DNA of 20,193 nucleotides. Source: a virus. The first letter of the stretch is position 1, and each line of letters opens with the position of its first letter. The notes below the pieces were generated by a model. The model saw only the letters and a list, made by a program, of their open reading frames with translations, was not told the DNA's origin and did no database searches. Where the stretch lies: the IMG/VR virus record IMGVR_UViG_3300033571_006474, positions 1 through 20,193 of that record. One strand, given 5' to 3'. The position numbers and the translations under genes are program-made. Shown here in pieces: positions 379 to 20,193 of the stretch.

Positions 379-384
379 TATCTT
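379..384 (+). promoter_or_regulatory. -10 box TATCTT, leaderless-type promoter
   Basis: TATCTT ends 7 nt before the ATG at 392 and is preceded by TG plus one base (376-378), forming an extended -10. Transcription would begin at or next to the start codon. The same geometry recurs at six other genes in the window. No -35 is seen. Confidence 0.4.
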
Positions 385-391
385 AGCAGTG

Positions 392-553
392 ATGGATTAC
401 GAGTCGTGGTCTACGTGGGTGTTTCGTTGCTGGTTCGCTAGTGGTGGTCAGGGGAGGTTGGTGGTTCATGCGGCGTGCGAGTATGATGCTTGGGTGTCGT
501 TTAGAGTGTTGACTGGGTTTGATGTGAGTCTTGATGGTTTGGAGCATTACTGA
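392..553 (+). CDS. Small hypothetical protein (53 aa)
   Basis: A 53-residue frame, MDYESWSTWVFRCWFAS to LDGLEHY, not matching a family I recognise. It is rich in aromatic residues (Trp, Tyr, Phe) and has no signal peptide or obvious motif. Reasons to call it real: its stop overlaps the next start as ATGA, it fills the space up to the next gene, its codons resemble the neighbours (G/T at third positions), and an extended -10 box sits 7 nt before the ATG. A GTG at 389 is an alternative start. The frame is closed by a stop at 341-343, so it cannot extend far upstream. It lies first in the packaging operon; any link to DNA packaging is only positional. Confidence 0.5.
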   Translation: MDYESWSTWVFRCWFASGGQGRLVVHAACEYDAWVSFRVLTGFDVSLDGLEHY

Positions 554-729
554 TGAGTGAGCAGAAGTTTGATCCTGAGGCGGCTAGGGTTATGGCGTGG
601 ATGTTTCAGCAGCGTAATTTGTTTGAGCGTGAGCATGGTCGTCCTCCGTCTAGTAGGGAGTGGTTTCCTGTTCAGATTGAGGCTAGGGCGCGGTATGAGA
701 GGATGACTTGTCGTGACGAAGCGTGCTGA
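553..729 (+). CDS. Small hypothetical protein upstream of terminase (58 aa)
   Basis: A 58-residue charged protein with a central RNLFEREHGRPPSSREW segment and a helical, Arg/Glu-rich C-terminal half ending in two cysteines. I do not recognise the family. The start is supported by GGAG at 541-544, 8 nt before the ATG, and by the ATGA overlap with the preceding stop. Its 3' end overlaps the small terminase start by 17 bp, so the three frames 392-553, 553-729 and 713-1252 look translationally linked. Small proteins just before terS are common in phages and are often DNA-binding or packaging accessory proteins, but nothing in the sequence proves that here. Confidence 0.6.
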   Translation: MSEQKFDPEAARVMAWMFQQRNLFEREHGRPPSSREWFPVQIEARARYERMTCRDEAC

Positions 730-1252
730 TTTGAAGATGCAGCGTGAGGATAAGCAGACTGGTATTGAGAAGTTCGGGTTGGACGAGTCTGCTTTCTTGG
801 TTGAGGGGTATCGGCACTCGGTGACTCCCAACGAGTTGTCGAAGGAGCAGATGGATGAGGCTGTGGAGATGGCTGGTCTTGGCGCTTTTGAGTCGGCTAT
901 TGCCAGGGTGCTTGGCGTGTCGGAGTCTACGTTTGTGAATAGTCTTCGTAAGGGCAAGCTTGGACAGTCCGAGTTGTATCGCGAGTGGTCTGACAGGTTT
1001 TATGAGGCGCGGAAGAAGCATATGAAGCGGAATCTTCGTGTGATGAATGAGGCGGTTGATGAGGGTGATTGGAAGCCTGCGGCGTGGCAGCTCGAACGCA
1101 GCTTTGGGTTTCACAAGCAGGAGGTGGTGGAACATGAGGTTGGGCCGCAGACGCTCTCACTGATGCAGTTGGCGCAGATCCCAATTGAGGATGCGCAGAA
1201 GGCGCTTGAGATTGAGGGCGAAGTAGTGGTTGAGCCTGATGATGCTGCGTGA
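713..1252 (+). CDS. terS: Terminase small subunit
   Basis: A 179-residue protein that should bind the packaging start site and load the large terminase. Residues about 57-80 (GAFESAIARVLGVSESTF) form a helix-turn-helix of the type found in small terminases. They are followed by a basic helix rich in Arg and Lys (about 85-112) and then GDWKPAAWQLERSFG (118-132), which matches the GD-x-AAW-LERRFP signature of many phage TerS proteins. The C-terminal tail is acidic, as expected for contacts with TerL. The GTG start has AGAGGA at 698-703, 9 nt upstream; an in-frame ATG at 737 is possible but has no ribosome site. The stop overlaps the TerL GTG start (GTGA), giving coupled expression. Confidence 0.88.
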   Translation: MTKRADLKMQREDKQTGIEKFGLDESAFLVEGYRHSVTPNELSKEQMDEAVEMAGLGAFESAIARVLGVSESTFVNSLRKGKLGQSELYREWSDRFYEARKKHMKRNLRVMNEAVDEGDWKPAAWQLERSFGFHKQEVVEHEVGPQTLSLMQLAQIPIEDAQKALEIEGEVVVEPDDAA

Positions 1253-2832
1253 GTAACGAACTAGACCGTGCCGCCCTAGAGTTACGGGCGAAGATGGCTG
1301 ACCCAGTGTGGAAAGCCAAGAATCTATTTGGTTTTGAACCATGGTCAAAGCAGCGCGAGATTCTGAAGGCGCTCCGTAAGCACAAGCGTGTCGCTGTTCG
1401 CTCTTGTCACGGCGTTGGCAAGACGGCAACCGCTGCTACTGCTGTGCTGGATTTTATGACGGAAGGCCCGTGCCGCGTCATCACCACAGCGCCTACATGG
1501 AGTCAGGTCGAACAGCTCTTGTGGCGCGAAATCGCCGTCCGCCACTCAAAGATCCCTGGTGGCAAGGATGCTTTTGGCAAGATATTCAAATCATCGCTAG
1601 AGGTGCGCTCGGATTGGTTCGCGATGGGACTTTCAACCGACAAGCCAGAACGATTTCAGGGTCATCACTCTCCCCGCATGATGCTTGTCGTAGACGAGGC
1701 TAGTGGTATTGACGAAGCTATCTACGAAGCATCCGAAGGCTTCCTCACTGCTGATGAGGCGCGCGTTCTTCTGATTGGGAACCCGACTCGACCCGCCGGA
1801 ACCTTCTACAAAGCATTCCAGAAAGACTCTGGATGGTACCCAGTCCACATGAGCGCGTTTGATGCGCCCTGTTTCACCAATGAGCGCGTATCCAAAGAGG
1901 CTCAGAGAGCTTTGATCACGCAAGAATGGGTACAGGACGCCAAACAACAGTGGGGTGAGGACTCTGCGGCGTACAAGATTCGCGTGTTAGGCGAGTTTTG
2001 TGAGACAACAGGCCGCCAATTCTTCAACTTTCTCGACAATCTCGCCGCCACGCCCCACAAGAAACGTGGTTTCGTGCGTGGAATGCCGGTTCCTGGCGGT
2101 CGAATCGAGTTTTATGAGGAATCTCGGGGCGGAATGCGCATGTGGGAGACACCACAAGCCGGTGTTCGCTACCTAATCTTCGCTGATGTGGCCGGATCGG
2201 TCAGTTTTGACGAGTATGAGCGGCGAGAATCCCGTATTGGAGCTGGTGCGGGGTCAGATTATTCGGTCGCGGAGGTTCTTCGCCTTGATAATGGCGAGCA
2301 AGTCGCCGAAATCCGGTATCGAGCGGATGTTGACGAGTTTGCCGACGACTTGGCGCGTCTTGGGCGTTTGTATAACGATGCGATGCTAGCTGTGGAGCGC
2401 AATGGGCCGGGTGCGGCTGTCCTTACCCAGCTGAAGAACGTGATGGGGTATCCGCATATCTGGAGGCCGCGTAATCCAATCCATGTGAAGACGCGGATGG
2501 ATCAAACGCTTGGGTGGAACACGACTGCTGCGACTCGCCCCATGATGCTCGCCGCAATGCAGGCCGCTATTCGTGATGAGCCTGGTCGAATCAAGAGCGA
2601 ACTGCTGATTGACGAGCTACGCACGTTTGTTTTTCGGGATCGGAATGGTAAGGAGCCGCGCCCCGAGGCGGATGAGGGTTGTCACGACGACTTGGTGATG
2701 GCTATGGCTGGTGCGCAAGCGGTGTGGCAGCAGGAGGCGCAGTCTCCGATTCGCCTTGTTGAGCGGCCTAAGCCTGTGGTTGAGGTTCCGATGCAGAAGC
2801 GTGCGCCACGATTTGTTGTTGGACGCGGCTAG
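1249..2832 (+). CDS. terL: Terminase large subunit (ATPase and nuclease)
   Basis: A 527-residue motor protein that pumps DNA into the procapsid at the portal and cuts the concatemer. Walker A is SCHGVGKT (52-59). Walker B is MLVVDEA (145-151, Asp149/Glu150 acidic pair). The coupling motif is LLIGNPTRP. The C-terminal RNase H-like nuclease carries acidic residues at Asp313 (IFADVAG), Glu383 (VERNGPG) and Asp480/Asp481 (CHDDLV). The length is usual for the family and all catalytic motifs are intact. The GTG start overlaps the terS stop. No strong Shine-Dalgarno is visible, consistent with translational coupling. The stop codon lies inside the left arm of a 12-bp inverted repeat. Confidence 0.97.
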   Translation: MSNELDRAALELRAKMADPVWKAKNLFGFEPWSKQREILKALRKHKRVAVRSCHGVGKTATAATAVLDFMTEGPCRVITTAPTWSQVEQLLWREIAVRHSKIPGGKDAFGKIFKSSLEVRSDWFAMGLSTDKPERFQGHHSPRMMLVVDEASGIDEAIYEASEGFLTADEARVLLIGNPTRPAGTFYKAFQKDSGWYPVHMSAFDAPCFTNERVSKEAQRALITQEWVQDAKQQWGEDSAAYKIRVLGEFCETTGRQFFNFLDNLAATPHKKRGFVRGMPVPGGRIEFYEESRGGMRMWETPQAGVRYLIFADVAGSVSFDEYERRESRIGAGAGSDYSVAEVLRLDNGEQVAEIRYRADVDEFADDLARLGRLYNDAMLAVERNGPGAAVLTQLKNVMGYPHIWRPRNPIHVKTRMDQTLGWNTTAATRPMMLAAMQAAIRDEPGRIKSELLIDELRTFVFRDRNGKEPRPEADEGCHDDLVMAMAGAQAVWQQEAQSPIRLVERPKPVVEVPMQKRAPRFVVGRG

Positions 2833-2876
2833 GAGATCCGCGAGTGAGCGGGTGAGGGTTGGTTTCTCCTAGCCGC
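2825..2876. terminator. 12-bp inverted repeat spanning the terL stop
   Basis: GCGGCTAGGAGA (2825-2836) is the exact reverse complement of TCTCCTAGCCGC (2865-2876), with a 28-nt loop. The TAG stop of terL is inside the left arm. There is no T tract after it, so it is either a U-less terminator, an mRNA-stabilising stem or a protein-binding dyad. It precedes the run of small genes that have their own -10 boxes, which fits a transcription boundary. Confidence 0.5.
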
Positions 2877-2893
2877 ACCAGCACCGTAGCATG

Positions 2894-2899
2894 TATCAT
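2894..2899 (+). promoter_or_regulatory. -10 box TATCAT, leaderless-type promoter
   Basis: TATCAT lies exactly 6 nt before ATG 2906 (TTCAAC between), placing +1 at or next to the A of the start codon. It decides the start: the upstream in-frame ATG at 2891 would overlap the -10 box itself. Confidence 0.5.
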
Positions 2900-2905
2900 T
2901 TCAAC

Positions 2906-3073
2906 ATGCCAGTTAAGGGAACCGACTATAAGAAGGGCGACTTCAACAAGCTCGCTGCGAAGTTGAAGGCGAAGAGTGGGAAGGATTCTGGCGCGCTTAC
3001 GGCGTACATTATGCGTAAGAAGTATGGTGCTAAGAAGTGGGCAAAGATTCAGGCCGAGGGTCGCAAGGACTGA
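2906..3073 (+). CDS. Small basic protein, paralogue A (55 aa)
   Basis: A 55-residue Lys-rich protein with no known fold that I recognise. The core KLAAKLKAK, AL-AYIMRKKYG and AEGRKD aligns with the 50-residue protein at 3412-3564 (KLVASLRAK, ALAASIGRKKLG, AAGRR), so the two are paralogues in the same cluster. The chosen start, ATG 2906, sits 6 nt after TATCAT; ATG 2891 would add five residues (MYHFN) but has no ribosome site. The stop overlaps the next start (TGATG). Strong positive charge suggests a nucleic-acid or virion-associated role, but this is inference. Confidence 0.7.
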   Translation: MPVKGTDYKKGDFNKLAAKLKAKSGKDSGALTAYIMRKKYGAKKWAKIQAEGRKD

Positions 3074-3396
3074 TGAGCGAGTTTGTGCCGCCTAGTGGCG
3101 CTCGCGCGGCTGCGCGCCGAGGGTTGGATCTTGTGGCAAAGGGTAAGGCGGGTGGTGGTTTTGAGCCTGCGACTGCTGCTCGGGCGCGAAAGATTGCTGC
3201 TGGCGCGCCACTAACTCGTGACCATGTGATGCGTATGCACTCATTCTTCAGCAGACACGCGGTTGATCGCAAGCCTAATTGGGGCGCGTCTGGTAAAGAG
3301 ACTCCGGGGTATGTTGCGCATCAGGCGTGGGGTGGAGATGCTGGAGCGTCGTGGGCTTCTAGTCTTGCTAAGCGCCTTCGAGAATCCGACAAGTAG
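3073..3396 (+). CDS. Phage head-cluster domain protein, XkdF-like N-terminal type (107 aa)
   Basis: A 107-residue stand-alone domain. The sequence FVPPSGARAAARRGLDL, an ARARKIAAG segment, the DHVMRMHSFFSRHAVD helix (50-65) and HQAWGGDAGASWA (83-95) match a widespread phage domain (pattern P-x-A-x-x-AKRGL, RM-S-F-RHEVD, WGGDAG-AWA). I know it as a separate protein and as a domain in XkdF-like head proteins. Its biochemical role is not known to me. The start ATG 3073 overlaps the previous stop and has AAGGA at 3065-3069; a longer reading from GTG 3037 would run through the upstream gene and is less likely. It lies between terL and the spike genes. Confidence 0.7.
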   Translation: MSEFVPPSGARAAARRGLDLVAKGKAGGGFEPATAARARKIAAGAPLTRDHVMRMHSFFSRHAVDRKPNWGASGKETPGYVAHQAWGGDAGASWASSLAKRLRESDK

Positions 3397-3398
3397 GG

Positions 3399-3404
3399 TA
3401 TAGT
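3399..3404 (+). promoter_or_regulatory. -10 box TATAGT, leaderless-type promoter
   Basis: TATAGT begins three bases after the stop of the previous gene and ends 7 nt before GTG 3412. No Shine-Dalgarno is present in the 15-nt gap between the genes, so a leaderless transcript best explains this start. Confidence 0.5.
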
Positions 3405-3411
3405 TTCTCGC

Positions 3412-3564
3412 GTGAAGAAGACCAAGTACGCAAAACTTGTCGCTTCGCTTCGCGCAAAGGGCGCTGAAGATCCTCGCGCGCTTGCCGCAAGCATTGGTCG
3501 TAAGAAGCTTGGTAACGAAGAGTTCCAGCGCAGGGCTGCTGCTGGTCGCAGGAGTGCTGCGTAA
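3412..3564 (+). CDS. Small basic protein, paralogue B (50 aa)
   Basis: A 50-residue protein starting MKKTKYAKLVASLRAKGA and ending AAAGRRSAA. It is rich in Arg, Lys and Ala, and two helices are likely. It shares the order of conserved blocks with the 55-residue protein at 2906-3073 (KL-A-L-AK, D-AL-A-I-RKK-G, A-GR), about one residue in three identical by eye, so an old duplication is likely. The start is GTG 3412, 7 nt after a TATAGT box. Its stop TAA overlaps the next ATG (TAATG). Its small size and position between terL and spike genes suggest a virion or regulatory accessory protein; no function can be assigned. Confidence 0.7.
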   Translation: MKKTKYAKLVASLRAKGAEDPRALAASIGRKKLGNEEFQRRAAAGRRSAA

Positions 3565-3872
3565 TGGCTCCGCTTGATAAACTCAAGAAGAAGAACGCTC
3601 CGACTGTTAGCATCGCGCTCATGCGCATGAAGCCCATGTCGCGCAAAGAAGCAATGAACGATGCCATGTCCGAAGACGGCTCTGAATACGACACGACCGA
3701 AAATAATGCTGAAGAAGAAATGGGCAAAGAAGACATGATGGAGGACAAGGCCGAATACGGTTCTGAGCATTGTCCCAAGTGTGCCGAGTATCAGATGCTC
3801 ATTGGCGAAGCACTCGCCATGTACATGAAGAACAAGGACGCTAAGGAAACGCCAGACTCCGAGATGGAGTAG
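3564..3872 (+). CDS. Acidic Met-rich hypothetical protein with CxxC (102 aa)
   Basis: A 102-residue protein with a basic N-terminus (LDKLKKKNAP), a very acidic middle (about 36-65, many Glu and Asp) and a single CPKC pair near residue 71, then a short helix and an acidic tail. Thirteen of 102 residues are Met. The polarity change suggests a partly disordered protein. The lone CxxC could bind a metal only as a dimer or with a partner. The start is well supported: AGGAG at 3550-3554, 9 nt before the ATG, which overlaps the upstream stop. I do not recognise the family. Confidence 0.65.
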   Translation: MAPLDKLKKKNAPTVSIALMRMKPMSRKEAMNDAMSEDGSEYDTTENNAEEEMGKEDMMEDKAEYGSEHCPKCAEYQMLIGEALAMYMKNKDAKETPDSEME

Positions 3873-3876
3873 GTGC

Positions 3877-3882
3877 TACACT
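3877..3882 (+). promoter_or_regulatory. -10 box TACACT, leaderless-type promoter
   Basis: TACACT starts 5 nt after the upstream stop codon and ends 7 nt before ATG 3890. The intergenic gap is only 17 nt and lacks a ribosome site. Confidence 0.45.
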
Positions 3883-3889
3883 AAACCCT

Positions 3890-4216
3890 ATGAGCGTACC
3901 TCCGAACATGATGGGCGCAGGCCCCGCAATGATGGCTCCTCCCGCCGCGCCGATGCCTCCGGCTCCGACCGCGCAGACACCGGCGATGGCTGCTCTGCCT
4001 GGTATGGCTCAGCTCGCGTCTGCTCAGCAGGCTCAGATGATGGCAATTCAGGATGAGATGAATAAGCAGATTATGATGCTTATCGCTAGTCTTCCTACGC
4101 CAAATCCGGCTGGTGAGGCTGCTGTTAGTGCGCCGCTTACGCCGATGATGAGTGGTGCGGATACTGGTAGTGCTGCTCCGGCTATGCCGATGAGCGGTGG
4201 TACTGGTGCCTACTAA
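3890..4216 (+). CDS. Met/Pro/Ala-rich low-complexity protein (108 aa)
   Basis: A 108-residue low-complexity protein: 17 Met, with Ala and Pro making up much of the rest. The N-terminal part (MSVPPNMMGAGPAMMAPP) and the C-terminal part are probably disordered. The middle (about 38-70, MAQLASAQQAQMMAIQDE and onward) could form an amphipathic helix with Met on one face. There is no signal peptide. It starts 7 nt after TACACT with no Shine-Dalgarno, and its last 11 nt overlap the next gene. I do not recognise it. Low-complexity proteins near head genes are often linkers or minor virion components, which is inference here. Confidence 0.6.
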   Translation: MSVPPNMMGAGPAMMAPPAAPMPPAPTAQTPAMAALPGMAQLASAQQAQMMAIQDEMNKQIMMLIASLPTPNPAGEAAVSAPLTPMMSGADTGSAAPAMPMSGGTGAY

Positions 4217-4487
4217 TAACTTTGCGCAGAATGATGCTGGCGTAAACGCGCCGTTCACTCGCGCAGTAGCGATCACGGCTAATGATTCAACGGATCTTGC
4301 TGAGATCCCGCGCGCGCTGAACGTGCATAAGGGAACGGGCGGATCTGTGACGGCGATCAAGGTTACGATGGTTGGGGATTCTACGCCGGTAACGCTTAAT
4401 CTGAACGTGGGCGCGGTGTTTCCGATTCGTGTTAGTCGAGTGTGGGCTACTGGCACGGACGCGACTCAGATCATCGCCCTCTACTGA
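4206..4487 (+). CDS. Spike base protein-like (RcGTA Rcc01079 type)
   Basis: A 93-residue beta-rich protein. The blocks ITANDSTDLAEIPRALNV (23-40), TVMVGD-like VTMVGDSTPVTLN (53-65) and VFPIRVSRVWATGTDATQII (71-90) followed by ALY at the end match the pattern of the small spike-base proteins named after Rcc01079 of the Rhodobacter gene transfer agent (P-D-T-DL-RALYVG, V-P-GT-LP-R-RVLATGTTAT-I-ALY). In that particle the base holds head spikes. The start is taken as GTG 4206, which gives an 11-bp overlap with the preceding gene; GTG 4197 would add only three residues. The following two genes are fibre-like, which strengthens the spike-base reading. This is by recalled pattern, not a search. Confidence 0.62.
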   Translation: MPTNNFAQNDAGVNAPFTRAVAITANDSTDLAEIPRALNVHKGTGGSVTAIKVTMVGDSTPVTLNLNVGAVFPIRVSRVWATGTDATQIIALY

Positions 4488-4493
4488 TACACT
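4488..4493 (+). promoter_or_regulatory. -10 box TACACT, leaderless-type promoter
   Basis: TACACT begins directly after the TGA of the spike-base gene and ends 6 nt before GTG 4500. No ribosome site fits in the 12-nt gap. Confidence 0.45.
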
Positions 4494-4499
4494 ATCCGC

Positions 4500-5231
4500 G
4501 TGCCGTACACTGCCCCGACTCCTAGTACCGTAGCTCCTGGCGATACGTTCCCAGCTACGGCGTATAACATTATTGCTGCGGATCTTGCTGATCACGAGTC
4601 GCGGATTAAGACGGGTGTTGAGTCGTATACGACTGCGCAGAAGACTGCGCTTACTGGTGTCGCGACGGGTACTGTTATTTACGACTCAACTCTTGGCCTT
4701 ATGCAAGTGTGGAATGGGTCTGCTTGGTATGCAGCGTCAGGATTTATTCCAATCAATACAACAGTTGTTAATTCTCAAACAAGCGTAAATGTGGATAACG
4801 TATTTCCAACAACCTTTTCTGCACATAGGGTTGTTATTACTGATTGGAATCTGGCTGCTGGCAGTAGTTCTACTTTTAGTTTTAGAACCGCTGGAGCTTC
4901 TCCTGCTACGGATTCGACTGCTAATTACAATTGGCTGTATCGAACTGGGATTTACTCAACTGGTGCGGCAAGTTTTAACAATGGAGTAAGCCAAACAAGC
5001 CATTCTCTTTTCATTGGTGGCGGTAGTTTGGCAATCAATCATATTTTGGAAATCACAAACGCAGCTCAGGCCTCCCCAACGTCGTATACAATGGCAGGAA
5101 CAGCGTTTACTCCGTCGGCTAACTCTGTGCAAGGTTCTGGGTATCATGCTGCATCAACTATATTCGGAGGATTTAATATTTCAACTTCTGCTTCTTTTTC
5201 ATGCACAATTCGAGTTTACGGGTTTGTTTAA
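4500..5231 (+). CDS. Spike/fibre protein with C-terminal jelly-roll-like receptor domain
   Basis: A 243-residue virion attachment protein. Residues 1-40 form a short anchor (MPYTAPTP to SRIKTG) resembling the start of the next gene. Residues 43-79 (TTAQKTAL, then GTVIYDSTLGLMQVWNGSAW) are a fibre repeat also seen downstream. Residues about 82-243 form a beta-rich tip containing VNVDNVFPTTF and ending CTIRVYGFV; this matches a recurrent phage fibre tip with a DNVF-x-YD-YRIV core and a TIRVYGY end. The tip (from about 4740) is AT-richer than the rest, as for an exchanged module. Starting at GTG 4500 it is preceded by a TACACT box. Placed just after a spike-base gene, it may be a head spike rather than a tail fibre. 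Confidence 0.75.
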   Translation: MPYTAPTPSTVAPGDTFPATAYNIIAADLADHESRIKTGVESYTTAQKTALTGVATGTVIYDSTLGLMQVWNGSAWYAASGFIPINTTVVNSQTSVNVDNVFPTTFSAHRVVITDWNLAAGSSSTFSFRTAGASPATDSTANYNWLYRTGIYSTGAASFNNGVSQTSHSLFIGGGSLAINHILEITNAAQASPTSYTMAGTAFTPSANSVQGSGYHAASTIFGGFNISTSASFSCTIRVYGFV

Positions 5232-5237
5232 TTAGTT

Positions 5238-8449: not shown

Positions 8450-8451
8450 TT

Positions 8452-8475
8452 CCGACTAACCGACTATCCGACCGG
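8452..8475 (+). repeat. Three tandem octamers CCGACTAA / CCGACTAT / CCGACCGG
   Basis: Three CCGAC units in exact 8-nt phase fill the 34-nt gap between the portal stop and the scaffold ribosome site, the last running into GGAGGA. This may be a binding site for a regulator, a spacer element or a chance micro-repeat. Other CCGAC words occur nearby (9374, 9394) without phase. Confidence 0.5.
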
Positions 8476-8479
8476 AGGA
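8474..8479 (+). promoter_or_regulatory. Strong Shine-Dalgarno GGAGGA for the scaffold gene
   Basis: GGAGGA lies 4 nt before ATG 8484, followed by CAAG. It is the strongest ribosome site in the window and shares the GGA-CAA form with the sites before the capsid gene and the gene at 10714. Confidence 0.75.
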
Positions 8480-8483
8480 CAAG

Positions 8484-9368
8484 ATGAGCGAGATTGAAGA
8501 GACTACTGACGAGCGCGACCCGATTGCAGACGCGATTCTGCATGGCGGCGCTCCAAAGGATGACCCGTTTGAAACGCCTGACGAAGCGCCTGTCGCTGAG
8601 GAAGCGCCTGTTGCTGACGAGTTGATTCTTGGCAAGTTCAAGAGCGTTGATGATGTTGTTGAGGCGTACAAGAATCTAGAGTCGCACAACACGCAGACGA
8701 ATCAGCGCCTGTCTGAACTTGAGGCTCTTCTCATGCAGGATGATGAGGACGAGTCTCCGGTTCAGCCGTGGGGCGTTTCGTTCAATGGCGAGCCTGAGAA
8801 TGAGGAGCAGCTTATTGGCTGGGCTGAGCGTGATGCTGGAGCGGCTGCTCAGTGGGCGATGGCGAATGCGAATCGTGTTCCGCAGGAAACTGTGAATAGT
8901 CTGTGGGAGCATTGGTTTGAGACTAAGCCTGCTGAGGCGAATGCTTGGTATGTTCAGCAGCAGACTCAGCAGATCCGTCAGCAGTACGAGGACGAGCTTG
9001 CGATGTTGCGCGAGCAGATCACTCCGCTTCGTGATCAGCAGACGCAGACGCTTTTTGAGTCTAGCCTTGAGTCGCTTGAGTCGCAGATCCCTGATCTTGC
9101 CGACTATTCGGACAAGATCCAGGCGTACATTGACAATATTCCCGTTGATCAGCTTCATCTCGCGTTCTTCCCAAATGGGATGGATACGCCGGAGAAGATT
9201 CAGAATGGCGTGAAGAGTCTGTATGCGATTGTTCGTATGCAGGAGCAGCCCGTTCAGCATCAGGCCGTGGAGCAGCCAAGCGCGTTTACGCAGTCTCGGC
9301 AGGGCGTTGCTGACACTGGCCCGGTGGATTACGCTGCTAAGATCAACGCTGCTATCCTTAATGGGTAG
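8484..9368 (+). CDS. Scaffolding (capsid assembly) protein
   Basis: A 294-residue acidic, mostly helical protein that should template procapsid assembly and leave before or during packaging. The N-terminus is rich in Asp, Glu and Pro (1-45). LGKFKSVDDVVEAYKNLES (49-67) is the signature of T7/P22-style scaffold or capsid-assembly proteins (GKYKS-EDL-KAY-L). A Gln-rich coiled-coil region follows (about 150-195, with QQQTQQIRQQYEDEL). The C-terminus should hold the capsid-binding helix. The position between portal and major capsid gene is the classic scaffold slot. Expression is supported by GGAGGA. No protease domain is visible. Confidence 0.87.
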   Translation: MSEIEETTDERDPIADAILHGGAPKDDPFETPDEAPVAEEAPVADELILGKFKSVDDVVEAYKNLESHNTQTNQRLSELEALLMQDDEDESPVQPWGVSFNGEPENEEQLIGWAERDAGAAAQWAMANANRVPQETVNSLWEHWFETKPAEANAWYVQQQTQQIRQQYEDELAMLREQITPLRDQQTQTLFESSLESLESQIPDLADYSDKIQAYIDNIPVDQLHLAFFPNGMDTPEKIQNGVKSLYAIVRMQEQPVQHQAVEQPSAFTQSRQGVADTGPVDYAAKINAAILNG

Positions 9369-9445
9369 TAGTTCCGACCATGTGTGGCCCAACCCGACCG
9401 TTGGACAACCGCAGAAACCCGTAAACTCCTCTATCCAGAAAGCGT

Positions 9446-9449
9446 AGGA
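9446..9449 (+). promoter_or_regulatory. Shine-Dalgarno AGGA for the capsid gene
   Basis: AGGA followed by CAA, 8 nt before ATG 9458. The 89-nt gap (9369-9457) between scaffold and capsid genes otherwise holds only a weak CCAAC/GTTGG dyad (9389-9404). Confidence 0.6.
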
Positions 9450-9457
9450 CAATCTAA

Positions 9458-10633
9458 ATGCCTACCCTCCTCTCCGGGGTTGTTGACGACGCGGATATTC
9501 TGTCGAACCAGCGTGTCGTTGATATGTCCCCCACCATCGCTGAGCTTGAGCCGGACGAGGCTCCGCTCACGACGATGCTCCAGAAGGTCAGCAAGCGCGC
9601 TGCCTACTCGCAGAAGGTCGAGTGGCTGAGTGACGAGCTGGTGCCGCGCCTGACGACGCTTGCTGCGTCGGCTACGTCGTCGGCTACTTCTCTCTCCGTT
9701 CCTGCGACGACGGGCGCTTCGTCCGGCACGTACTTCCGTGCTGGCGACGTTATCCGCATCGCTTCGACTGGTGAGAACTGCTACGTCACTGGCGTTTCGG
9801 CTGACACTCTCTACGTCACGCGCGGCATTGGCGGCTCGGCTGTTACGGCTGCGTCGGCTGCGTCGGGCGTTGATGTGATCAAGGTCGGCAACGCTGCGGC
9901 TGAGGGTGCCACGCTTGGCACGCTCATCCAGACGAAGAAGGTCGCCAACTACAACTACGCGCAGATCCAGCGTGACCCGTGGGGCTTCACGAACACGCTG
10001 GTCGCGTCGAAGCTGTACGGTGGCCCGGAGCCTGCTAACGAGGCGAAGAAGAAGCTGATTGAGCATAAGCGTCAGCTTGAGAACACCCTGTTCTGGGGCG
10101 TTCGCGACCTCAACACGAGCGGTGCTGCTCCGATTGGTTACTGTGGTGGCGTCTTCCAGTTTGCCACGACGAACCTCACGACTGGCGTTGGCACCCTGAC
10201 GGAGAGCGTCTTTGAGTCGTTTCTCCGCAAGGCGTTCCGTTACGGCTCGCAGAACAAGGTGTTCTTCTGCTCGCCGCTCGTCGCGTCGGCTCTGTCCTCG
10301 TTCCCGCAGGGCAAGCTCGCTCCCCCGTCGCCTGGTATCACGGAGTACGGCGTTTCGCTGTCCTCGTACCAGTCGGCTTCGGGCGCGAAGGTGCAGATCA
10401 TGGTGAAGCGTGACTGGTACGATTTCCAGTCCACCGCGAACCAGTACGGCGGCATTGGCGTCATGCTCGACATGGAGGACATTACGATGCGTCCTCTGCG
10501 CGACACGGTGCTGAAGCCGGATCGTCAGGCCAACGACGAGGACTCCGTTAAGCAGGAGTACCTCACCGAGTGGTCGTTTGAGATGGGCAGCGAGAAGAAG
10601 CACGCCATCATCTCGGGCATCACCGGCTACTAA
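9458..10633 (+). CDS. Major capsid protein, SU10/DUF5309-like
   Basis: A 391-residue shell protein of the HK97 fold class, inferred from order and sequence. The N-terminal arm (MPTLLSGVVDDADILSNQRV to LEPDEAPLTTML) and VEWLSDELVPR (54-64) match capsid proteins of the SU10/DUF5309 group. Residues 68-145 form a Ser/Thr/Ala-rich beta insertion with a FRAGDVIRI to YVTRGIGGSA core, a usual insertion domain in this group. KVANYNYAQIQRDPWGFTNT and EAKKKLIEHKRQLENTLFWG (195-214) are the spine-like helix region. Codons are strongly biased to C- and G-ending forms compared with neighbours, as for a highly expressed gene. It is preceded by AGGA and followed by a strong hairpin. Confidence 0.92.
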   Translation: MPTLLSGVVDDADILSNQRVVDMSPTIAELEPDEAPLTTMLQKVSKRAAYSQKVEWLSDELVPRLTTLAASATSSATSLSVPATTGASSGTYFRAGDVIRIASTGENCYVTGVSADTLYVTRGIGGSAVTAASAASGVDVIKVGNAAAEGATLGTLIQTKKVANYNYAQIQRDPWGFTNTLVASKLYGGPEPANEAKKKLIEHKRQLENTLFWGVRDLNTSGAAPIGYCGGVFQFATTNLTTGVGTLTESVFESFLRKAFRYGSQNKVFFCSPLVASALSSFPQGKLAPPSPGITEYGVSLSSYQSASGAKVQIMVKRDWYDFQSTANQYGGIGVMLDMEDITMRPLRDTVLKPDRQANDEDSVKQEYLTEWSFEMGSEKKHAIISGITGY

Positions 10634-10644: not shown

Positions 10645-10680
10645 CTAGGCGGCGGGGATATATGACTCCCCGCCGCCTAG
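10645..10680 (+). terminator. 13-bp perfect hairpin after the capsid gene
   Basis: CTAGGCGGCGGGG (10645-10657) pairs fully with CCCCGCCGCCTAG (10668-10680) around a 10-nt loop, 11 nt after the capsid stop. There is no U tract, so it is a U-less terminator or an mRNA 3' stabiliser that keeps capsid mRNA abundant. The next gene starts 33 nt downstream with its own ribosome site but no clear promoter, so read-through is likely. Confidence 0.8.
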
Positions 10681-10701
10681 TCCAACTCTCCCACCCGACA
10701 C

Positions 10702-10706
10702 AGGAG
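10702..10706 (+). promoter_or_regulatory. Shine-Dalgarno AGGAG for the 10714 gene
   Basis: AGGAG then ACAA, 7 nt before ATG 10714. Same layout as the scaffold and capsid sites. Confidence 0.7.
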
Positions 10707-10713
10707 ACAATCA

Positions 10714-11358
10714 ATGCGATTTGTCAGCAAGCACGGTAATTACACTTTTGTAGCGCGCCCCGATACGGTTCAGATGATCCTCGGCCCTGGTGGTGCGATG
10801 ATGCCGCATACCGTTCAGAGCGCCATTATCTGTGATTTCACGCATGGCATGGTTCGTCCTGATGAGGCGATGATGGCTGCTGAGAAGTGGATGGGCATGG
10901 GAAATCGTCAGGATGGTACGCCTATCGCGTTTGGCGCTGTCCCTAGTGCGCAGAGTGGCGTGGTCAATGGGCAGGCGCACGATTCGTGGCAGCCAATGTT
11001 GACGTTCAGCGTGTTTGACACGGACACGATCCCGAATGAGGAGGATCGAGCGTACGCTGAAAAGCGTCTTCTTGAGGATGCGAGCAACGGGAATCATTAC
11101 ATTCAGGTTGGTCATCGTAAACTTGATCCGCCGTGGCCGACGTACGAGCAGATGCAGGGCAAGAAGGGTCAGCCGACTAGTGCGCTGATCTGCAACATGA
11201 TCCGCGAGGGTGGGTACGACCCGGATTATGTGATTGCGTACGAGCTTCAGCGTGAGCGTCCTCGTTACGACATTCCGAAGGCGATTGAGGCGCTGAAGGA
11301 AGAACTTGCAGCTCAGGCTGCTGAGGATGCTTCGCTGGCGCGCGAAATCCCCGCGTAG
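10714..11358 (+). CDS. Hypothetical head-region protein (214 aa)
   Basis: A 214-residue soluble protein. The first third is beta-like (MRFVSKHGNYTFVARPDT, then MILGPGGAMMPHT). The middle carries SWQPMLTFSVFDTDTIP, and the C-terminal half is helical and charged, ending in an Ala/Glu-rich helix (IEALKEELAAQAAEDASLAR, 191-210). I do not recognise a named family. Its place right after the capsid gene, its own Shine-Dalgarno and its size fit a minor capsid, head-completion or decoration-type protein, but that is positional inference. It is separated from the glycosyltransferase gene by only 2 nt. Confidence 0.7.
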   Translation: MRFVSKHGNYTFVARPDTVQMILGPGGAMMPHTVQSAIICDFTHGMVRPDEAMMAAEKWMGMGNRQDGTPIAFGAVPSAQSGVVNGQAHDSWQPMLTFSVFDTDTIPNEEDRAYAEKRLLEDASNGNHYIQVGHRKLDPPWPTYEQMQGKKGQPTSALICNMIREGGYDPDYVIAYELQRERPRYDIPKAIEALKEELAAQAAEDASLAREIPA

Positions 11359-11360
11359 TC

Positions 11361-12926
11361 ATGCACCACAACATTGCCGCGTATGAGGCGGCTGTGCGTC
11401 GTCATGTAACGGTGATTATTCCGTGGCATGGGCGAGAGGAGGATTTGCTTCGGCAGGCTCTTCGTTCGCTTCCTCGCGGCGTAAACGTGATCATTGCGAA
11501 GAACGCTGGTAAGCATGAGATGGCTAGTGCGGTCAATGCTGCGCTAGAAGCAGCAAAGACGCGGTACGTGTTTTTCATGGGCGCTGATGATGTGCTTGAC
11601 TCTGAGACGCTTTGGCGCTTGTGGGAAGCGGCTATTGATTATGATGGTGCGTATCCGTGGATGCTCGGGTTTGGTGATAGGCGCTTTAGGTTTCCGGCTG
11701 AGCCGTGGTCGCTTCGGCGTATTCAGGATGCGAATGTGGGTGGCGCTCTGCTTGTGAAGACGGCTGCGGCTCGCGCTGTTGGCGGGTATGCGGATAAGGC
11801 GATTGAGGATTGGGATTTTTCGTACCGGTTGGCGCAGGCTGGTTATCGGCTCGCGCCTGCTCCGCGCGCTCGGTACGGGTATCGTCAGCGTCCTAACGGG
11901 TTGTGTAGGTCTACGATTGATCAGGCTGCGAGCATGGGCTTGTCGGTTATGGATCTTGCGCCGTACGAGGAGCGCGAGGATGTGTCGAGCGTTTTCTACC
12001 AGTGGAAGTACGATGGTACGGCGTATGTGCGGTGTGATCTCGCTGCGCGTACGGCTGGTGGTGTGGTGCGTGGTACGTGGGATTGGCAGAATATTCACCA
12101 GGCTCCCGCGTGGGTGTACCAGTATCCGAACCGTGATGCGCAGCCGTATTGGGATCTTGGCGCAAAGCTTGGCAAGAAGCGCGTGATTGATGTGGATGAC
12201 AATTATTTGTCTACTGATCTTGCGAATGTTGTCAGCAAGTACCATCAGGAGAATGGGAAGGCGTGGGGTGAGCGCCAAGAGTCGCATAAGCGGATGGTTG
12301 AGGAGGCCGACTATGTTATTTGTGCCACGCCAGCTCTAGTTGAGGTGTATGGCGCGGTGAATCCGAATGTTGTGTTGTGTGAGAACTCGTGTGATCCGGT
12401 TGATTGGCCGCGTGTTCAGAAGAAGAAGAAGATTGTTGGGTGCGTGTTGAGCGCAAATCATTATGATCATCTTCACTTGGTTGAAGACGCTTTGCGTTAT
12501 GCGGATGCTGCTGGCGCTGAAGTTCAAATCGTTGGGTTAGATCCTGATTGGGACTTCTCGTATACGCATTTTGCGTTTACGCCTAGTGTCGCTTCGTATC
12601 GGCGCGTGTTGTCTCGCTGGAGCATTGGCTTAGCGCCAGTCATAGATAATGACGTTACTCGATGCAAGAGTGATTTGAAGTGGCTTGAGTTCACGATGAG
12701 TGGAGCTGCGCTTGTTGCTAGTGATGCTGAGGCGTATAAGCGTGTTCCAAATGACTCGATTATCAGAGTTGATGGTGCCAATGGGTTTCGTGATTCTGTC
12801 GCAAAGTTGCTCGGTGATGAGGCCGAACGGAAGCGTATGATTCGTCGTAGCATGTTTCATGTGAAACGGGATCGCTTGGTTGGTAATGAGTCGTTGCGGA
12901 GCAGGTATACTAAAGCACTAGCATGA
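11361..12926 (+). CDS. Fused two-domain glycosyltransferase (GT-A plus GT-B)
   Basis: A 521-residue enzyme with two glycosyltransferase modules. Residues 14-200 are a family-2-like GT-A domain: VTVIIPWHGREEDLLRQAL, the metal-site region FFMGADDVLD (71-80), GGALLVKTAAARAVGGY, and the IEDWDFSYRLAQAGY acceptor/catalytic segment (148-162). Residues about 206-260 link the modules. Residues 260-521 resemble a GT-B domain: KRVIDVDDNYL (273-283), EADYVICATPALVEVY, ENSCDP, a Rossmann-type strand at 357-393, then IGLAPVIDNDVTRCKSDLKW and LEFTMSGAALVAS, the usual nucleotide-sugar site. Substrates are unknown. In a structural operon it could glycosylate virion proteins or host surface polymers. No ribosome site; it starts 2 nt after the previous stop. 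Confidence 0.88.
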   Translation: MHHNIAAYEAAVRRHVTVIIPWHGREEDLLRQALRSLPRGVNVIIAKNAGKHEMASAVNAALEAAKTRYVFFMGADDVLDSETLWRLWEAAIDYDGAYPWMLGFGDRRFRFPAEPWSLRRIQDANVGGALLVKTAAARAVGGYADKAIEDWDFSYRLAQAGYRLAPAPRARYGYRQRPNGLCRSTIDQAASMGLSVMDLAPYEEREDVSSVFYQWKYDGTAYVRCDLAARTAGGVVRGTWDWQNIHQAPAWVYQYPNRDAQPYWDLGAKLGKKRVIDVDDNYLSTDLANVVSKYHQENGKAWGERQESHKRMVEEADYVICATPALVEVYGAVNPNVVLCENSCDPVDWPRVQKKKKIVGCVLSANHYDHLHLVEDALRYADAAGAEVQIVGLDPDWDFSYTHFAFTPSVASYRRVLSRWSIGLAPVIDNDVTRCKSDLKWLEFTMSGAALVASDAEAYKRVPNDSIIRVDGANGFRDSVAKLLGDEAERKRMIRRSMFHVKRDRLVGNESLRSRYTKALA

Positions 12927-14466: not shown

Positions 14467-14469
14467 CGT

Positions 14470-16482: not shown

Positions 16483-17867
16483 TGGCTAGGGAGCATATTG
16501 ATCCTCCGGCGATGCCGCCGGTGAAACCGATGCCGGAGCCGCCTGATCCTCGGATCATTCCGCTTGATCGGCAGACTCCTCTTACGCATCAGCAGGTTGA
16601 GCAGGTTAGGTTTGGGTTGGGTGATACGGGGCCGTTGGCTCAGGCTGTGATGAATGCGAATGTGCCTGCGTTGGCGAAGCAGCTTGCGACGGGTGCGGTG
16701 TCGTGTTTGTCTTCTCGTCGTCCTGCTGATCCCGTGGTGGGTCAGATGATTTATGAGACTGATACGCAGCAGACTCGATTTTGGAATGGAACCGAGTGGC
16801 AGACACCGGCCAATGCAACAGTAGTTTGCACATCTACAACAAAACCATTAAACCCATCTTTGGGACAATTTATTTACTGCACGGACACAGATGAGTCTCT
16901 CAAGTTTGTTTCCTATGGTGGATCAAATAGATGGATGCAAGCAAACCCAAAGTCAAATAGGCGACTTAATTTGAATGGTGGAATGGGTGTTTGGCAACGT
17001 GGTGCTGGCCCTGTAACAACAAGTGGGCAATATCTCGCTGACAAATATCAATGCGTAAATACAAACTCCTATTCAAGAAGCACAGATGTTCCAACCGGAA
17101 TGGGATTTCAATACTCTATTTCTTATGGCAATTCTTCTGCTGCATACCCACTTATTTTGCACAAAATTGAAGCTGTTGATTCTGCTAGATTTGTGGGAAA
17201 ATATCTTACAATTAGTTTTTGGGCAAAAAATGTTAGTGGTTCTGTTGGGATTTATGCAGATTTTCTTAGCCCAACAGCAGTTGATAACTGGGCAGGAGTA
17301 AACAATTGGAGTACGGCAATATCTTCGGCAATTGTCCCAACTAATTCTTGGACATATTACTCATTTACAAGCAATGTTGTTGCCCCGGCCAGCGTTGCAA
17401 ATGGTTTAGGATTTTATATTCCTAGAAATAATGGTTCGGCAACGACTCTTGTGACTGGTATCCAATTAGAAGTTGGAACTGCCCCTAGCGAGTTTGAGTT
17501 TAAAACATATTCTGACGAGTTGCGCTTGTGTCAAAGATATTACTATACGGTATTTAATGGTTCTGGTGGAAATAATCCGGCTTTGTTTAGAGGCAATTCT
17601 CCGAATATTGGCAATACGTACTTTTTCAATTTTTCTTTACCAATCGCACCACGTGTTGCTACTTTTGCAATCGCCTATCCTCAGCCATCAAATCAAATAC
17701 ATAAACCTGGTATTAGGTGGGATACGGCTAATTCTATTAGTATTAATGTTACGCCTGGTAATGATATTCGTTTTGAGTTTCAATGTGTTCCTGGGGTAGA
17801 TGATGGAAGCACTTATTACGTTTGTTATTTGTATGGTGTAAGCATTACTCTTACAGCTGATCTATAA
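16482..17867 (+). CDS. Tail fibre / receptor-binding protein (461 aa)
   Basis: A modular fibre. Residues 1-60 are a Pro-rich anchor (MAREHIDPPAMPPVKPMPEP) unlike the other two fibres, fitting attachment to the nozzle encoded just upstream. Residues 73-108 and 114-152 are fibre repeats (GQMIYETDT, GQFIYCTDT). Residues 159-355 are the same jelly-roll type as in the 5238 gene: RRLNLNGGMGVWQRG, LADKYQ, GKYLTISFWAKN (239-250), VTGIQLEVGTAPSEFEF and LCQRYYY (349-355). Residues 356-461 form a distinct tip. From about 16810 the DNA becomes strikingly AT-rich and uses AGA/AGG for Arg, unlike the 5' part, so the binding module was probably acquired from a different source. Confidence 0.78.
   Translation: MAREHIDPPAMPPVKPMPEPPDPRIIPLDRQTPLTHQQVEQVRFGLGDTGPLAQAVMNANVPALAKQLATGAVSCLSSRRPADPVVGQMIYETDTQQTRFWNGTEWQTPANATVVCTSTTKPLNPSLGQFIYCTDTDESLKFVSYGGSNRWMQANPKSNRRLNLNGGMGVWQRGAGPVTTSGQYLADKYQCVNTNSYSRSTDVPTGMGFQYSISYGNSSAAYPLILHKIEAVDSARFVGKYLTISFWAKNVSGSVGIYADFLSPTAVDNWAGVNNWSTAISSAIVPTNSWTYYSFTSNVVAPASVANGLGFYIPRNNGSATTLVTGIQLEVGTAPSEFEFKTYSDELRLCQRYYYTVFNGSGGNNPALFRGNSPNIGNTYFFNFSLPIAPRVATFAIAYPQPSNQIHKPGIRWDTANSISINVTPGNDIRFEFQCVPGVDDGSTYYVCYLYGVSITLTADL
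16698..16937 (+). repeat. Fibre repeat, two copies in the 16482 gene
   Basis: Copy 1 (16698-16805) encodes VSCLSSRRPADPVVGQMIYE and on to GTEW; copy 2 (16821-16937) encodes VVCTSTTKPLNPSLGQFIYC and on to NRWM. They follow the same C-x-S/T-x-R/K-P-x-x-P-x-x-GQ-x-IY-x-TDT pattern as the copies at 5496-5738. The GC-rich to AT-rich change falls between the two copies. Confidence 0.72.
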
Positions 17868-17893
17868 CAACACAAAGCCGACTGATCAATAGG

Positions 17894-17899
17894 TATACT
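17894..17899 (+). promoter_or_regulatory. -10 box TATACT, leaderless-type promoter
   Basis: TATACT ends exactly 6 nt before GTG 17906, in a 38-nt gap with no Shine-Dalgarno. This is the clearest example of the pattern because the whole box is outside any coding frame. Confidence 0.6.
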
Positions 17900-17905
17900 C
17901 TAACC

Positions 17906-18163
17906 GTGCCTTCCACTCTCTACGCACCCCAGCGCGTCAACTACAAGCCGACCGCACCCAACGCGAACCCAGAAACCGACCCGCGCAAAATCCTCCTCAA
18001 CTCGCTGAAGAAGCTTGGCGATAAGAAGACGCAAGGGATTATGGATCAGTCGCCTGCTGCCGTGATGGGAGCTGTGACGAATCCAACTGATGTTGCGAGT
18101 GGTATGAAGGGGAATATTCTTGGTGGCGTGGAGACTCGCGCTCGGATGATGGGCGGCAAGTAG
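17906..18163 (+). CDS. Small hypothetical virion-region protein (85 aa)
   Basis: An 85-residue protein: a Pro/Asn-rich, probably disordered N-terminus (MPSTLYAPQRVNYKPTAPNA), a basic amphipathic helix (RKILLNSLKKLGDKKTQGI, 27-45), and an Ala/Gly/Met-rich C-terminus ending MMGGK. I do not recognise the family. The start is set by the TATACT box 6 nt upstream. The stop overlaps the next GTG (TAGTG). Lying first in the 3' cluster of low-complexity proteins, it may be a small internal virion or ejection-associated protein, which is inference only. Confidence 0.65.
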   Translation: MPSTLYAPQRVNYKPTAPNANPETDPRKILLNSLKKLGDKKTQGIMDQSPAAVMGAVTNPTDVASGMKGNILGGVETRARMMGGK

Positions 18164-19374
18164 TGGCGGTAACGCGCGTCAAGATCCCTAAGCCTACGAA
18201 GACTGGCACGCCAAAGGGAATGGAGGGCGTGCGTCCTGGTTCGCCAAAGGCTATTGCGGCTGGGTATAAGGCTCCGAAGGGGCCGGGTAAGCCGGGTGGC
18301 GCGCCATTCTCCCCATCGTTCAACGCTGATGGCACGACAACGCTGAAGCCTCCTACGGCTCCAGCGGTCACTACGCCCACGACTCCGGCTCCGACTACGC
18401 GCACGGTCACTACTCCTGGTACGCCGCCGACTGCTTCTTGGTGGCAGTCGCAGTACACGAGTGATCCGTCTTTCCTGCTTACTGACCCGTCGCTTCGTGC
18501 TGCTCAGAATCAGACAAGTTCTAACTTTGGGTATCGCATCAATCGTGATGTGACTGAGGGTTCTCCGACTAAGGGGCAGGCGTACTATCGAGCGCCGAAG
18601 ATTGATCCTGTTACGAAGAAGCCTGTGCTTGATGAGACGGGTAAGCCCGTGTACTTGGCGACTGGGATTCTTCAGACGTTTGATGACGCTGGCAAGCCTG
18701 TCTACAAAGACTCAACGGGCAAGGTGTATGCGCCGTCTGAGCTTGAGATGGATATTCAGCGCATCGCTAAGGGCGAAGCCGGGTATCTTGAGGGCGCGCT
18801 TGGTGGTGCGGAGGCAACGAGTGAGAAGGCTCAGTTCAATATTGGTGATGTGGCTGCTCGTGCTGGTGCGCGGCGTAGTGGTATGCGCGCTCAGGCTAGT
18901 GCTGCTGAGACTGGTGCGCTTCAGTCGGCGCTTGCTGGTTTGACGCAGAAGGCTGCTGGCGAGTTGACGGGTATTGATAAGCAGTACGCTGATCTTTATT
19001 CTTCGATCTTTAGGGGGCTTGCTCCGAAGGCTGAGGCGCTTGCTGCTCCGACAACGGCTGAGGTTCCGGTTGCTCCTTCGGCTGAGGTGGTTCCGCCGCC
19101 TGCTGCTCCGAACACGAATCCGGTTACTGAGTCTGGTCTTGTTCCGAGGCAGGCGCTTAGTGGTGGGCCGCAGGGTCAGTTTATGGGTCAGGCTGGTGCG
19201 ATTGTTGCGCAGCGTGATGCTCCGTATGCGCAGAAGGTTGCTTCGTTGAATGCGTTGAAGCGGTTTGCTTTGACTCCTCAGCAGCTTAAGTGGATTAGTG
19301 ATTGGATTGAGAATAATAAGCCTAAGCCAGAGGTAAAGCCTAAGCCGAAGCCTGCTAAGGGTAAGGGCAAGTAG
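18163..19374 (+). CDS. Probable internal/ejection virion protein, low complexity (403 aa)
   Basis: A 403-residue protein, disordered at both ends. Residues 1-90 are basic and Pro/Thr-rich (KIPKPTKTGTPKGM; PTAPAVTTPTTPAPTT). Residues 93-200 are a folded-looking part with a short repeat, ETGKPVY, DAGKPVY, STGKVY (158-189). Residues about 200-290 form an Ala/Gly-rich helical stretch (GDVAARAGARRSGMRAQASA; AAGELTGIDKQYADLYSSIF). Residues 295-320 are a Pro/Ala linker, 357-385 a helical pair, and the tail (KPKPEVKPKPKPAKGKGK) is strongly basic. No transmembrane segment or lytic motif is seen. Position after the nozzle and fibre is where short-tailed phages keep ejection proteins. GTG start overlaps the upstream stop. 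Confidence 0.7.
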   Translation: MAVTRVKIPKPTKTGTPKGMEGVRPGSPKAIAAGYKAPKGPGKPGGAPFSPSFNADGTTTLKPPTAPAVTTPTTPAPTTRTVTTPGTPPTASWWQSQYTSDPSFLLTDPSLRAAQNQTSSNFGYRINRDVTEGSPTKGQAYYRAPKIDPVTKKPVLDETGKPVYLATGILQTFDDAGKPVYKDSTGKVYAPSELEMDIQRIAKGEAGYLEGALGGAEATSEKAQFNIGDVAARAGARRSGMRAQASAAETGALQSALAGLTQKAAGELTGIDKQYADLYSSIFRGLAPKAEALAAPTTAEVPVAPSAEVVPPPAAPNTNPVTESGLVPRQALSGGPQGQFMGQAGAIVAQRDAPYAQKVASLNALKRFALTPQQLKWISDWIENNKPKPEVKPKPKPAKGKGK

Positions 19375-19377
19375 AAT
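19372..19377 (+). promoter_or_regulatory. -10 box TAGAAT, leaderless-type promoter
   Basis: TAGAAT ends 6 nt before ATG 19384, and its TAG is also the stop codon of the preceding gene. No ribosome site is present in the 9-nt gap. Confidence 0.45.
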
Positions 19378-19383
19378 CTAGTT

Positions 19384-20193
19384 ATGGCTAACGGCGTTTA
19401 CCAGTTTGGCAATAGTGCCGGGTTTGTTTTGACGGATAAGCCTGCTCCGTCGTTTGCTTCTCAGCCTGGCGCTAAGTCTGAGATTGCCAAGCGAAAGAAG
19501 AAGGAAGCGGCGCAGGCTGCTAAGGACGCTGCGCCTACTACTACTTCTACGAGTGTTTCTTCTCCGGCGGGGAAAACTGCTGCTGAGAAGGCTGCTGATC
19601 GTAAGGCGGCTGCTGAGAAGCGTAAGGCGGCTGCGGCCAAGAGGGCTGAGGAGCGTAGGGCTGCTGCTGAGGCTGCGAAGAATCCGCTTACTGCTCCGTT
19701 TAAGACTCCGGCTGAGCTTCGTCGTGATGCGGCAGAGTTGGCGGCGATGGGTGTTGGTAGTGAGGATACGCTTCGTGCTACAGCCGCTCAGCAGCAGGCT
19801 GGTCTTGGTGGGCTTACTAGCGCGTTGACGGGTACGCTTACTGGGATTGCTGATCGTACGCAGGCTGGTCTTGCTGGGTTTGGGAATTTGTATTCGCAGC
19901 TTGCTGGTCAGGCGCAGTCGGCTGGTCAGTCGGCTGCTGCGGCGGCTGGCGCTCCGACGACTATTGCTGCTGGTGCGTCGCCGACGGTTGCGTCGAATCT
20001 TGCGAATCTTTCTGCTCCAACTATGGGGTATGCGCCTGCTGCTGCGGTGACTGGTGCGCAAATGGTTGGTGCGGTGACGGCGAATCTGACGAAGGCGCTG
20101 ATGAATCGGTCGAGTAAGTTGAGTGCGGATACGGCGAAGTATTTGTACCAGTTGAAGAATGATGAGATTCAGCGCGCTATTAGTCAGGGTACG
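19384..20193 (+). CDS. Probable internal/ejection virion protein, Ala/Lys-rich (partial at 3' end)
   Basis: At least 270 residues, open to the window end, with no stop. After a short start (MANGVYQFGNSAGFVLTDKP), residues 31-99 are a highly charged Lys/Ala/Arg/Glu region broken by a Ser/Thr-rich patch (51-60), with a probable coiled coil at 64-99 (KTAAEKAADRKAAAEKRKAA). Residues 100-230 are Ala/Gly/Thr/Ser-rich, with LGGLTSALTGTLTGIADRTQ (141-160) and LYSQLAGQAQSAGQS; this loosely resembles the ALQSALAGLTQKAAGELTGI stretch of the preceding protein, so the two may be related. The visible C-terminal part turns into an ordinary helix (KYLYQLKNDEIQRAISQ). No enzyme motif is seen. The composition fits a DNA-contacting or ejected core protein, which is inference. 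Confidence 0.7.
   Translation, partial: MANGVYQFGNSAGFVLTDKPAPSFASQPGAKSEIAKRKKKEAAQAAKDAAPTTTSTSVSSPAGKTAAEKAADRKAAAEKRKAAAAKRAEERRAAAEAAKNPLTAPFKTPAELRRDAAELAAMGVGSEDTLRATAAQQQAGLGGLTSALTGTLTGIADRTQAGLAGFGNLYSQLAGQAQSAGQSAAAAAGAPTTIAAGASPTVASNLANLSAPTMGYAPAAAVTGAQMVGAVTANLTKALMNRSSKLSADTAKYLYQLKNDEIQRAISQGT

Follow-up and report, generated by a model that had tools for sequence, protein, structure and literature searches.

Predicted leaderless extended −10 promoters repeated through the late module of an uncultured phage and its relatives

We analysed a viral contig of 20,193 bases, the IMG/VR record IMGVR_UViG_3300033571_006474 (hereafter the window, meaning the whole of this stretch), with respect to a short element, TANNNT, that stands just before the start codons of several of its genes. 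PHROG matches in the window comprise the small and large subunits of terminase, tail-fibre-like proteins, a portal protein, a major head protein and a glycosyltransferase. The capsid protein is common to about 25 IMG/VR loci, and the terminase is found at high identity in about 50, several of them on contigs of 38–40 kb. Cultured phages are only remote relatives of the window phage.

A first-pass annotation had proposed seven TANNNT boxes ending close to start codons, and all seven were found in place, on the + strand. The offset of a box is given here as the distance from its first T to the start codon. The first box, TATCTT at 379–384 (feature 379–394, offset 13), precedes ATG 392 of a gene for 53 amino acids (aa) lying ahead of the terminase small subunit gene. 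TATCAT at 2894–2899 (feature 2894–2908, offset 12) precedes ATG 2906, which starts a 55-aa basic protein encoded by the first gene after terminase. Then follow TATAGT at 3399–3404 (feature 3399–3414, offset 13) before GTG 3412 of a 50-aa protein, TACACT at 3877–3882 (feature 3877–3892, offset 13) before ATG 3890 of a 108-aa protein, and TACACT at 4488–4493 (feature 4488–4502, offset 12) before GTG 4500 of a 243-aa protein. The last two are TATACT at 17894–17899 (feature 17894–17908, offset 12) before GTG 17906 of an 85-aa protein, and TAGAAT at 19372–19377 (feature 19372–19386, offset 12) before ATG 19384 of a protein cut by the contig end. The offsets thus read 13, 12, 13, 13, 12, 12 and 12, as had been claimed (12 or 13 nucleotides, nt), and inspection of the sequences bore out the claimed absence of a good Shine-Dalgarno (SD) site, since an SD-like tetramer at SD distance was present in none of the seven.

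The annotation had proposed the box rate before random ATG/GTG codons as its own check, and the observation survived it: 7 of the 24 gene starts of the window are boxed at −12/−13 vs 12 of 837 non-start ATG/GTG codons (Fisher P = 2e-7). The chance rate of about 3% assumed at that time was too generous, the rate being 1.4% at these other ATG/GTG codons and 1.9% at all + strand positions; at 1.9% the binomial P is 2.4e-7. When the 25 nt before each start were shuffled, seven or more boxes were obtained in 0 of 20,000 trials. Ten starts of the window follow non-coding sequence (a gap of at least 9 nt, or, for 392, no known upstream gene), and seven of these are boxed while the other three have an SD-like motif. 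The other 14 starts overlap the preceding gene or sit at most 6 nt from it, and none of them is boxed. A cross-correlation of bare TANNNT with ATG/GTG, made without gene calls, gave no signal in the window alone because the loose TANNNT is too common inside genes, and it was replaced by a refined motif applied together with the relatives.

The family comparison covered the window and 12 related phage contigs, with the distant relative G008 left out, and genes in all of these were called with a coding model blind to promoters and boxes. Among the non-redundant starts, boxes were found at 42 of 119 gapped starts without an SD site, at 4 of 71 gapped starts with one, and at 0 of 103 overlapping or abutting starts. 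Orthologous contigs are not independent events, and these counts correspond to about eight independent slots rather than 45 genes; within those slots the box letters have turned over across the relatives. In the gapped class without SD sites, offset 12 accounts for 32 boxes and offset 13 for 10; offset 17 forms a smaller peak, also of 10, and the remaining offsets are near background. The boxes also depend on the length of the gap, with 25 of 32 gaps of 12–20 nt, 12 of 27 gaps of 21–40 nt and 6 of 121 longer gaps carrying one. All boxed non-redundant starts use ATG or GTG only.

Alignment of 44 non-redundant elements on the box gave the refined element GNTANANT. Its columns are G−14 (39/44) and A−9 (38/44) in addition to T−12, A−11 and T−7; the latter three were used to find the sites, so that A−9 gives independent support. 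The most frequent boxes are TATACT, TATAGT, TACACT, TAGACT and TAGAAT, and no −35-like column was found in the alignment of the 44 elements. The TANNNT proposed earlier as the promoter box therefore stands as the core, but the whole element is GNTANANT, which has the form of an extended −10 element without a −35 element.

In a scan of nine genomes that made no use of gene calls, the 231 kb of late DNA contained 44 + 13 = 57 cases of GNTANANT followed by RTG (ATG or GTG) at offset 12 or 13, where about 6 were expected (mean of 3.1 at other offsets). The same pattern was found 0 + 0 times on the late minus strand and 0 + 0 times in 115 kb of early DNA. With gene calls, which are weaker for early than for late genes, eight genomes gave boxes at 0 of 122 early starts vs 33 of 53 late gapped starts without SD sites; early gapped starts without SD sites were boxed in 0 of 43 cases. 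A search of the early DNA for the −35/−10 class, TTGAC-N15..19-TANNNT, gave 18 matches on the + strand and 13 on the − strand, so that the + strand is not clearly enriched. The window has two copies of the strict pattern GNTANANT-N6-RTG and the relatives G001, G002 and G003 have 5, 3 and 6, compared with 0–2 in each of eight cultured actinophages, most of which are larger. For EBPR podovirus 3 and lambda the counts are 3 and 6, the reversed-pattern controls giving 1 and 2, and the remote terminase relatives are mostly without an excess. The density of the strict pattern is thus not general among phages.

These results bear on whether the boxes could have arisen by chance, through a favourable choice of starts, or as an echo of TAG/TAA stop codons located just before the next gene. 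The window alone offers only seven sites, and the box at 19372 does begin with a stop codon, its TAG doubling as the stop of the preceding gene. But the window P is about 1e-7, the relatives agree whether genes are called box-blind or not called at all, and this explanation is refuted by the relatives, by the empty minus strand and by the empty early module; we leave it next to no probability. The stop-codon echo in particular was rejected, as an upstream stop codon forms the beginning of just 2 of the 45 non-redundant boxes.

Slot by slot, the letters of orthologous boxes vary while their distance to the start is kept. The start at 392 has a box at 12 or 13 in 9 of 11 non-redundant orthologues, without SD sites, and that at 2906 in 6 of 6. 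The element after terminase precedes homologues of the 3073 or 3412 genes where the 2906 gene is absent, so that the first gene of this slot (2906, 3073 or 3412 homologue) is boxed at −12 in most relatives, at gaps of about 14 nt (L038, L049 and L061) as well as at gaps of more than 70 nt. Boxes precede 11 of 14 orthologues at 3412, 11 of 17 at 3890 (TACACT, TAGGAT or TACAAT at 12 or 13) and 10 of 17 homologues at 4500. At 17906 the box is present in 8 of 9 orthologues, and AGGTATACT is near-invariant amid diverged flanks. The counterparts of 19384 carry TAGAAT or TAGACT at 12. SD counts are low at the boxed slots except 3890 and 4500, where the homologues without a box raise them. The small lysine-rich proteins encoded at 2906–3073 and 3412–3564 look similar, and they are gained, lost and exchanged among the relatives behind the conserved, predicted post-terminase promoter.

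The boxes had been described as belonging to small and accessory genes. This was wrong, as tail-fibre-like genes and a giant late gene of 1,763–2,061 aa are also boxed in the relatives. The giant gene lies at 30193–35484 in G001 (L105:10490–15781), where it has no Pfam match.

We consider it highly probable that each box serves as the −10 hexamer in a promoter of the extended −10 type that lacks a −35 element, read by the host RNA polymerase and producing leaderless mRNAs that subdivide the late region. The host principal sigma factor and RNA polymerase would recognise the box as an extended −10 with no −35. At offset 12 transcription would begin with the first base of the ATG or GTG, and at offset 13 one base earlier; the mRNA would be leaderless and translated from its 5′-terminal RTG. 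The earlier proposal of short internal promoters for leaderless mRNAs is strongly supported by the statistics, by the orthologues and by the absence of boxes at early and coupled starts, with the RNA starts themselves being predictions.

Several points weigh against this reading. T−15, which a full TGn extended −10 would have, is weak (18/44), G−14 is present in five of the seven window boxes and missing from those at 2894 and 19372, and about a third of the late gapped starts without SD sites have no box. At offset 13, found in about a quarter of cases, a single additional base would precede the start codon if initiation did not shift by one. As for the host, our best guess is that it is probably actinobacterial. 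Most RecT-like homologues come from phages infecting Microbacterium, Propionibacterium, Rhodococcus and Streptomyces, and proteins similar to the NlpC/P60 protein occur in phages with Gram-positive hosts, above all Mycobacterium and Streptomyces. A different indication comes from the capsid and portal proteins, whose relatives suggest other groups of phages. Searching the terminase against bacterial genomes gave remote matches only, mostly in Acidobacteria, which give no host identity, and the leucine tRNA (tRNA-Leu) of the relatives is uninformative in this respect.

The cases at offset 13 would also fit real promoters whose transcription starts some bases away, upstream or inside the gene, giving short-leadered or downstream mRNAs and translation that is not leaderless. 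So would a candidate eighth site, TATACT at 12906–12911 (feature 12906–12925, + strand), which lies 17 nt before ATG 12923 within the end of the glycosyltransferase gene and would give a leader of 5–6 nt. A TANNNT at −17 is kept there in all 10 relatives shown, which is weak evidence because the site is partly constrained by coding. Yet, except for the smaller peak at 17, offsets besides 12 and 13 stay close to background, a leadered promoter needs no tight coupling to RTG, and the boxed starts have no SD sites; such shifted starts appear improbable. It is still more improbable, in our view, that the element acts in RNA, as a non-SD translation signal or an RNA-processing site within one long late mRNA, and is no promoter. 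The boxed starts do lack SD sites and lie between genes on one strand, and the sequence by itself is compatible with a role in RNA. But the invariant letters match a −10 hexamer together with the G of an extended −10, and none of the 43 early gapped genes without SD sites is boxed, yet these would be translated by the same ribosomes.

As for the reader of the predicted extended −10 promoters, a phage-encoded sigma factor or WhiB was considered and rejected, since no sigma-70 region 4 or WhiB match was above the cut-off in 13 records. No recognisable RNA or DNA polymerase was found among 19 proteins of G001 scanned with Pfam. This suggests that the host RNA polymerase is the likely reader.

Under the promoter reading, the late region would form about seven short transcription units and not one operon, because each box would start its own leaderless mRNA and the genes behind it would use overlap with the preceding gene or an SD site. 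The terminase and capsid genes are each followed by a terminator-like hairpin, which may help to separate these units. That following the terminase large subunit gene (2825–2876, + strand) has perfect arms of 12 bp, with −33 kcal/mol for 2820–2885 (z −3.6); it is found in many relatives and lies immediately upstream of the predicted promoter at 2894. That following the major head protein gene (10645–10680, + strand) has perfect arms of 14 bp, with −36.3 kcal/mol for the intergenic stretch (z −6.9), and at this position the relatives also have a long G+C-rich stem, though its sequence differs. These stems come from single folds, and the multiple alignment of the capsid hairpin is not structure-aware, so that no covariation is claimed. 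Both hairpins look like terminators, with no T run at either.

The usual picture of a phage late region is that of one long operon, or a few, made up of SD-led genes. The layout here had been called unusual for a virion module, which it is, though not unprecedented. In the Thermus phage phiYS40, middle and late promoters have a single −10-like element, and early promoters have −35 and −10 elements. Most middle and late transcripts of phiYS40 are leaderless (PMC3594737), and the present family resembles it in promoter class, late-only use and lack of leaders, with the transcripts measured in phiYS40 and predicted here. As in phiYS40 and P23-45, the predicted single-element promoters are restricted to non-early genes. 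The late genes of the Thermus phage P23-45 likewise have extended −10 promoters needing no −35 contact (PMC7403470), an independence which is predicted here. Extended −10 promoters bypass the contact between sigma region 4 and the −35 element, and RbpA is dispensable at them in M. tuberculosis (PMC7403470). P23-45 differs in that its factor gp39 displaces sigma region 4; our searches were aimed at sigma-70 region 4 and WhiB alone. The host here, unlike that of phiYS40, is probably actinobacterial. No sequence kinship to Thermus phages was seen among the three capsid matches or the listed best terminase and portal matches. The family works like the phiYS40/P23-45 programme, but it is not filed as a member because there is no evident sequence relationship.

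A TANNNT with its first T about 12 nt from the start codon is known to mark leaderless genes; on average these make up 19% of the genes of Actinobacteria and 39% of those of Deinococcus-Thermus (PMC3160421). In mycobacteria, leaderless initiation requires ATG or GTG (PMC4633059). The phage elements agree with leaderless genes of these groups (PMC3160421; for mycobacteria PMC4633059 and PMC6448022) in core motif, distance, ATG/GTG starts and lack of SD sites; the signal about 12 nt before the start by which such genes are defined (PMC3160421) is present at all seven boxed starts of the window, and SD sites are absent from the same starts. Leaderless genes are known mainly from host chromosomes, where they are monocistronic or first in an operon, and it has been argued that only the first gene of a polycistronic mRNA can be leaderless (PMC3160421). 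In contrast, the boxes are repeated six to eight times within one virion module per genome, G−14 and A−9 are added, and the element is absent from the early genes of the same phages. Leaderless genes and the leaderless late transcripts of phiYS40 are thus already known, and what we describe is a variant of that kind.

The family appears to use many single-purpose leaderless promoters of about 14 nt, which fit gaps of 12–20 nt, and the predicted promoters stay put while the genes behind them are exchanged. If so, this layout would allow genes of the virion module to be gained or lost without loss of expression, and it would suit hosts whose ribosomes readily initiate on leaderless RNA. In uncultured phages, the motif can serve in practice as a rule for placing the starts of short genes. 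Its late-only distribution leads to a testable prediction of a polymerase switch. Tentatively, and with less than even confidence, we suggest that this −35-less leaderless class may be part of a temporal switch in which a phage protein blinds the host RNA polymerase to −35/−10 promoters, so that only the extended −10 phage promoters fire late and translation shifts to leaderless mRNA; in that case, phages of what are probably actinobacteria would have arrived independently at the phiYS40/P23-45 strategy.

The SD-led starts of the window, all on the + strand, behave as a class apart from the boxed starts. The 8484 gene has GGAGG (8474–8486), with SD sites in 12 of 12 orthologues and boxes in 0 of 12, and the 10714 gene has AGGAG (10702–10716), with SD sites in 13 of 13 and boxes in 0 of 13. 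Between them, the major head protein gene at 9458 has a weak SD site (AGGA; 9446–9460), no box in any of 11 orthologues, and a strongly conserved upstream sequence. In this 5′ region, at 9369–9457, the relatives share the near-invariant GTGGCCCAACCCGACCGTTGGACAACCGCA, while their proteins differ by up to about 40%. A stable hairpin was rejected for it, as the fold is no better than shuffles (z 0.71) though the sequence is strongly conserved, and for this reason the stretch may be a promoter or a protein-binding site.

Directly before the terminase gene, a tRNA-Leu (CAA) gene is found in several of the relatives (L035:514–596, L063:9915–9997, L039:9905–9988 and L060:1144–1224); the window has no space for one there, its genes being coupled by overlap at this place. 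Stretches of seven or eight C occur in non-coding DNA at 160–190 of the window, before the packaging genes, and at about 35600 of G001, after the giant gene. Finally, CCGAC(C) repeats at 8455–8483, 9385–9420 and 10690–10713 lie immediately upstream of three successive head genes with SD-led starts; the relatives have them at the same places.

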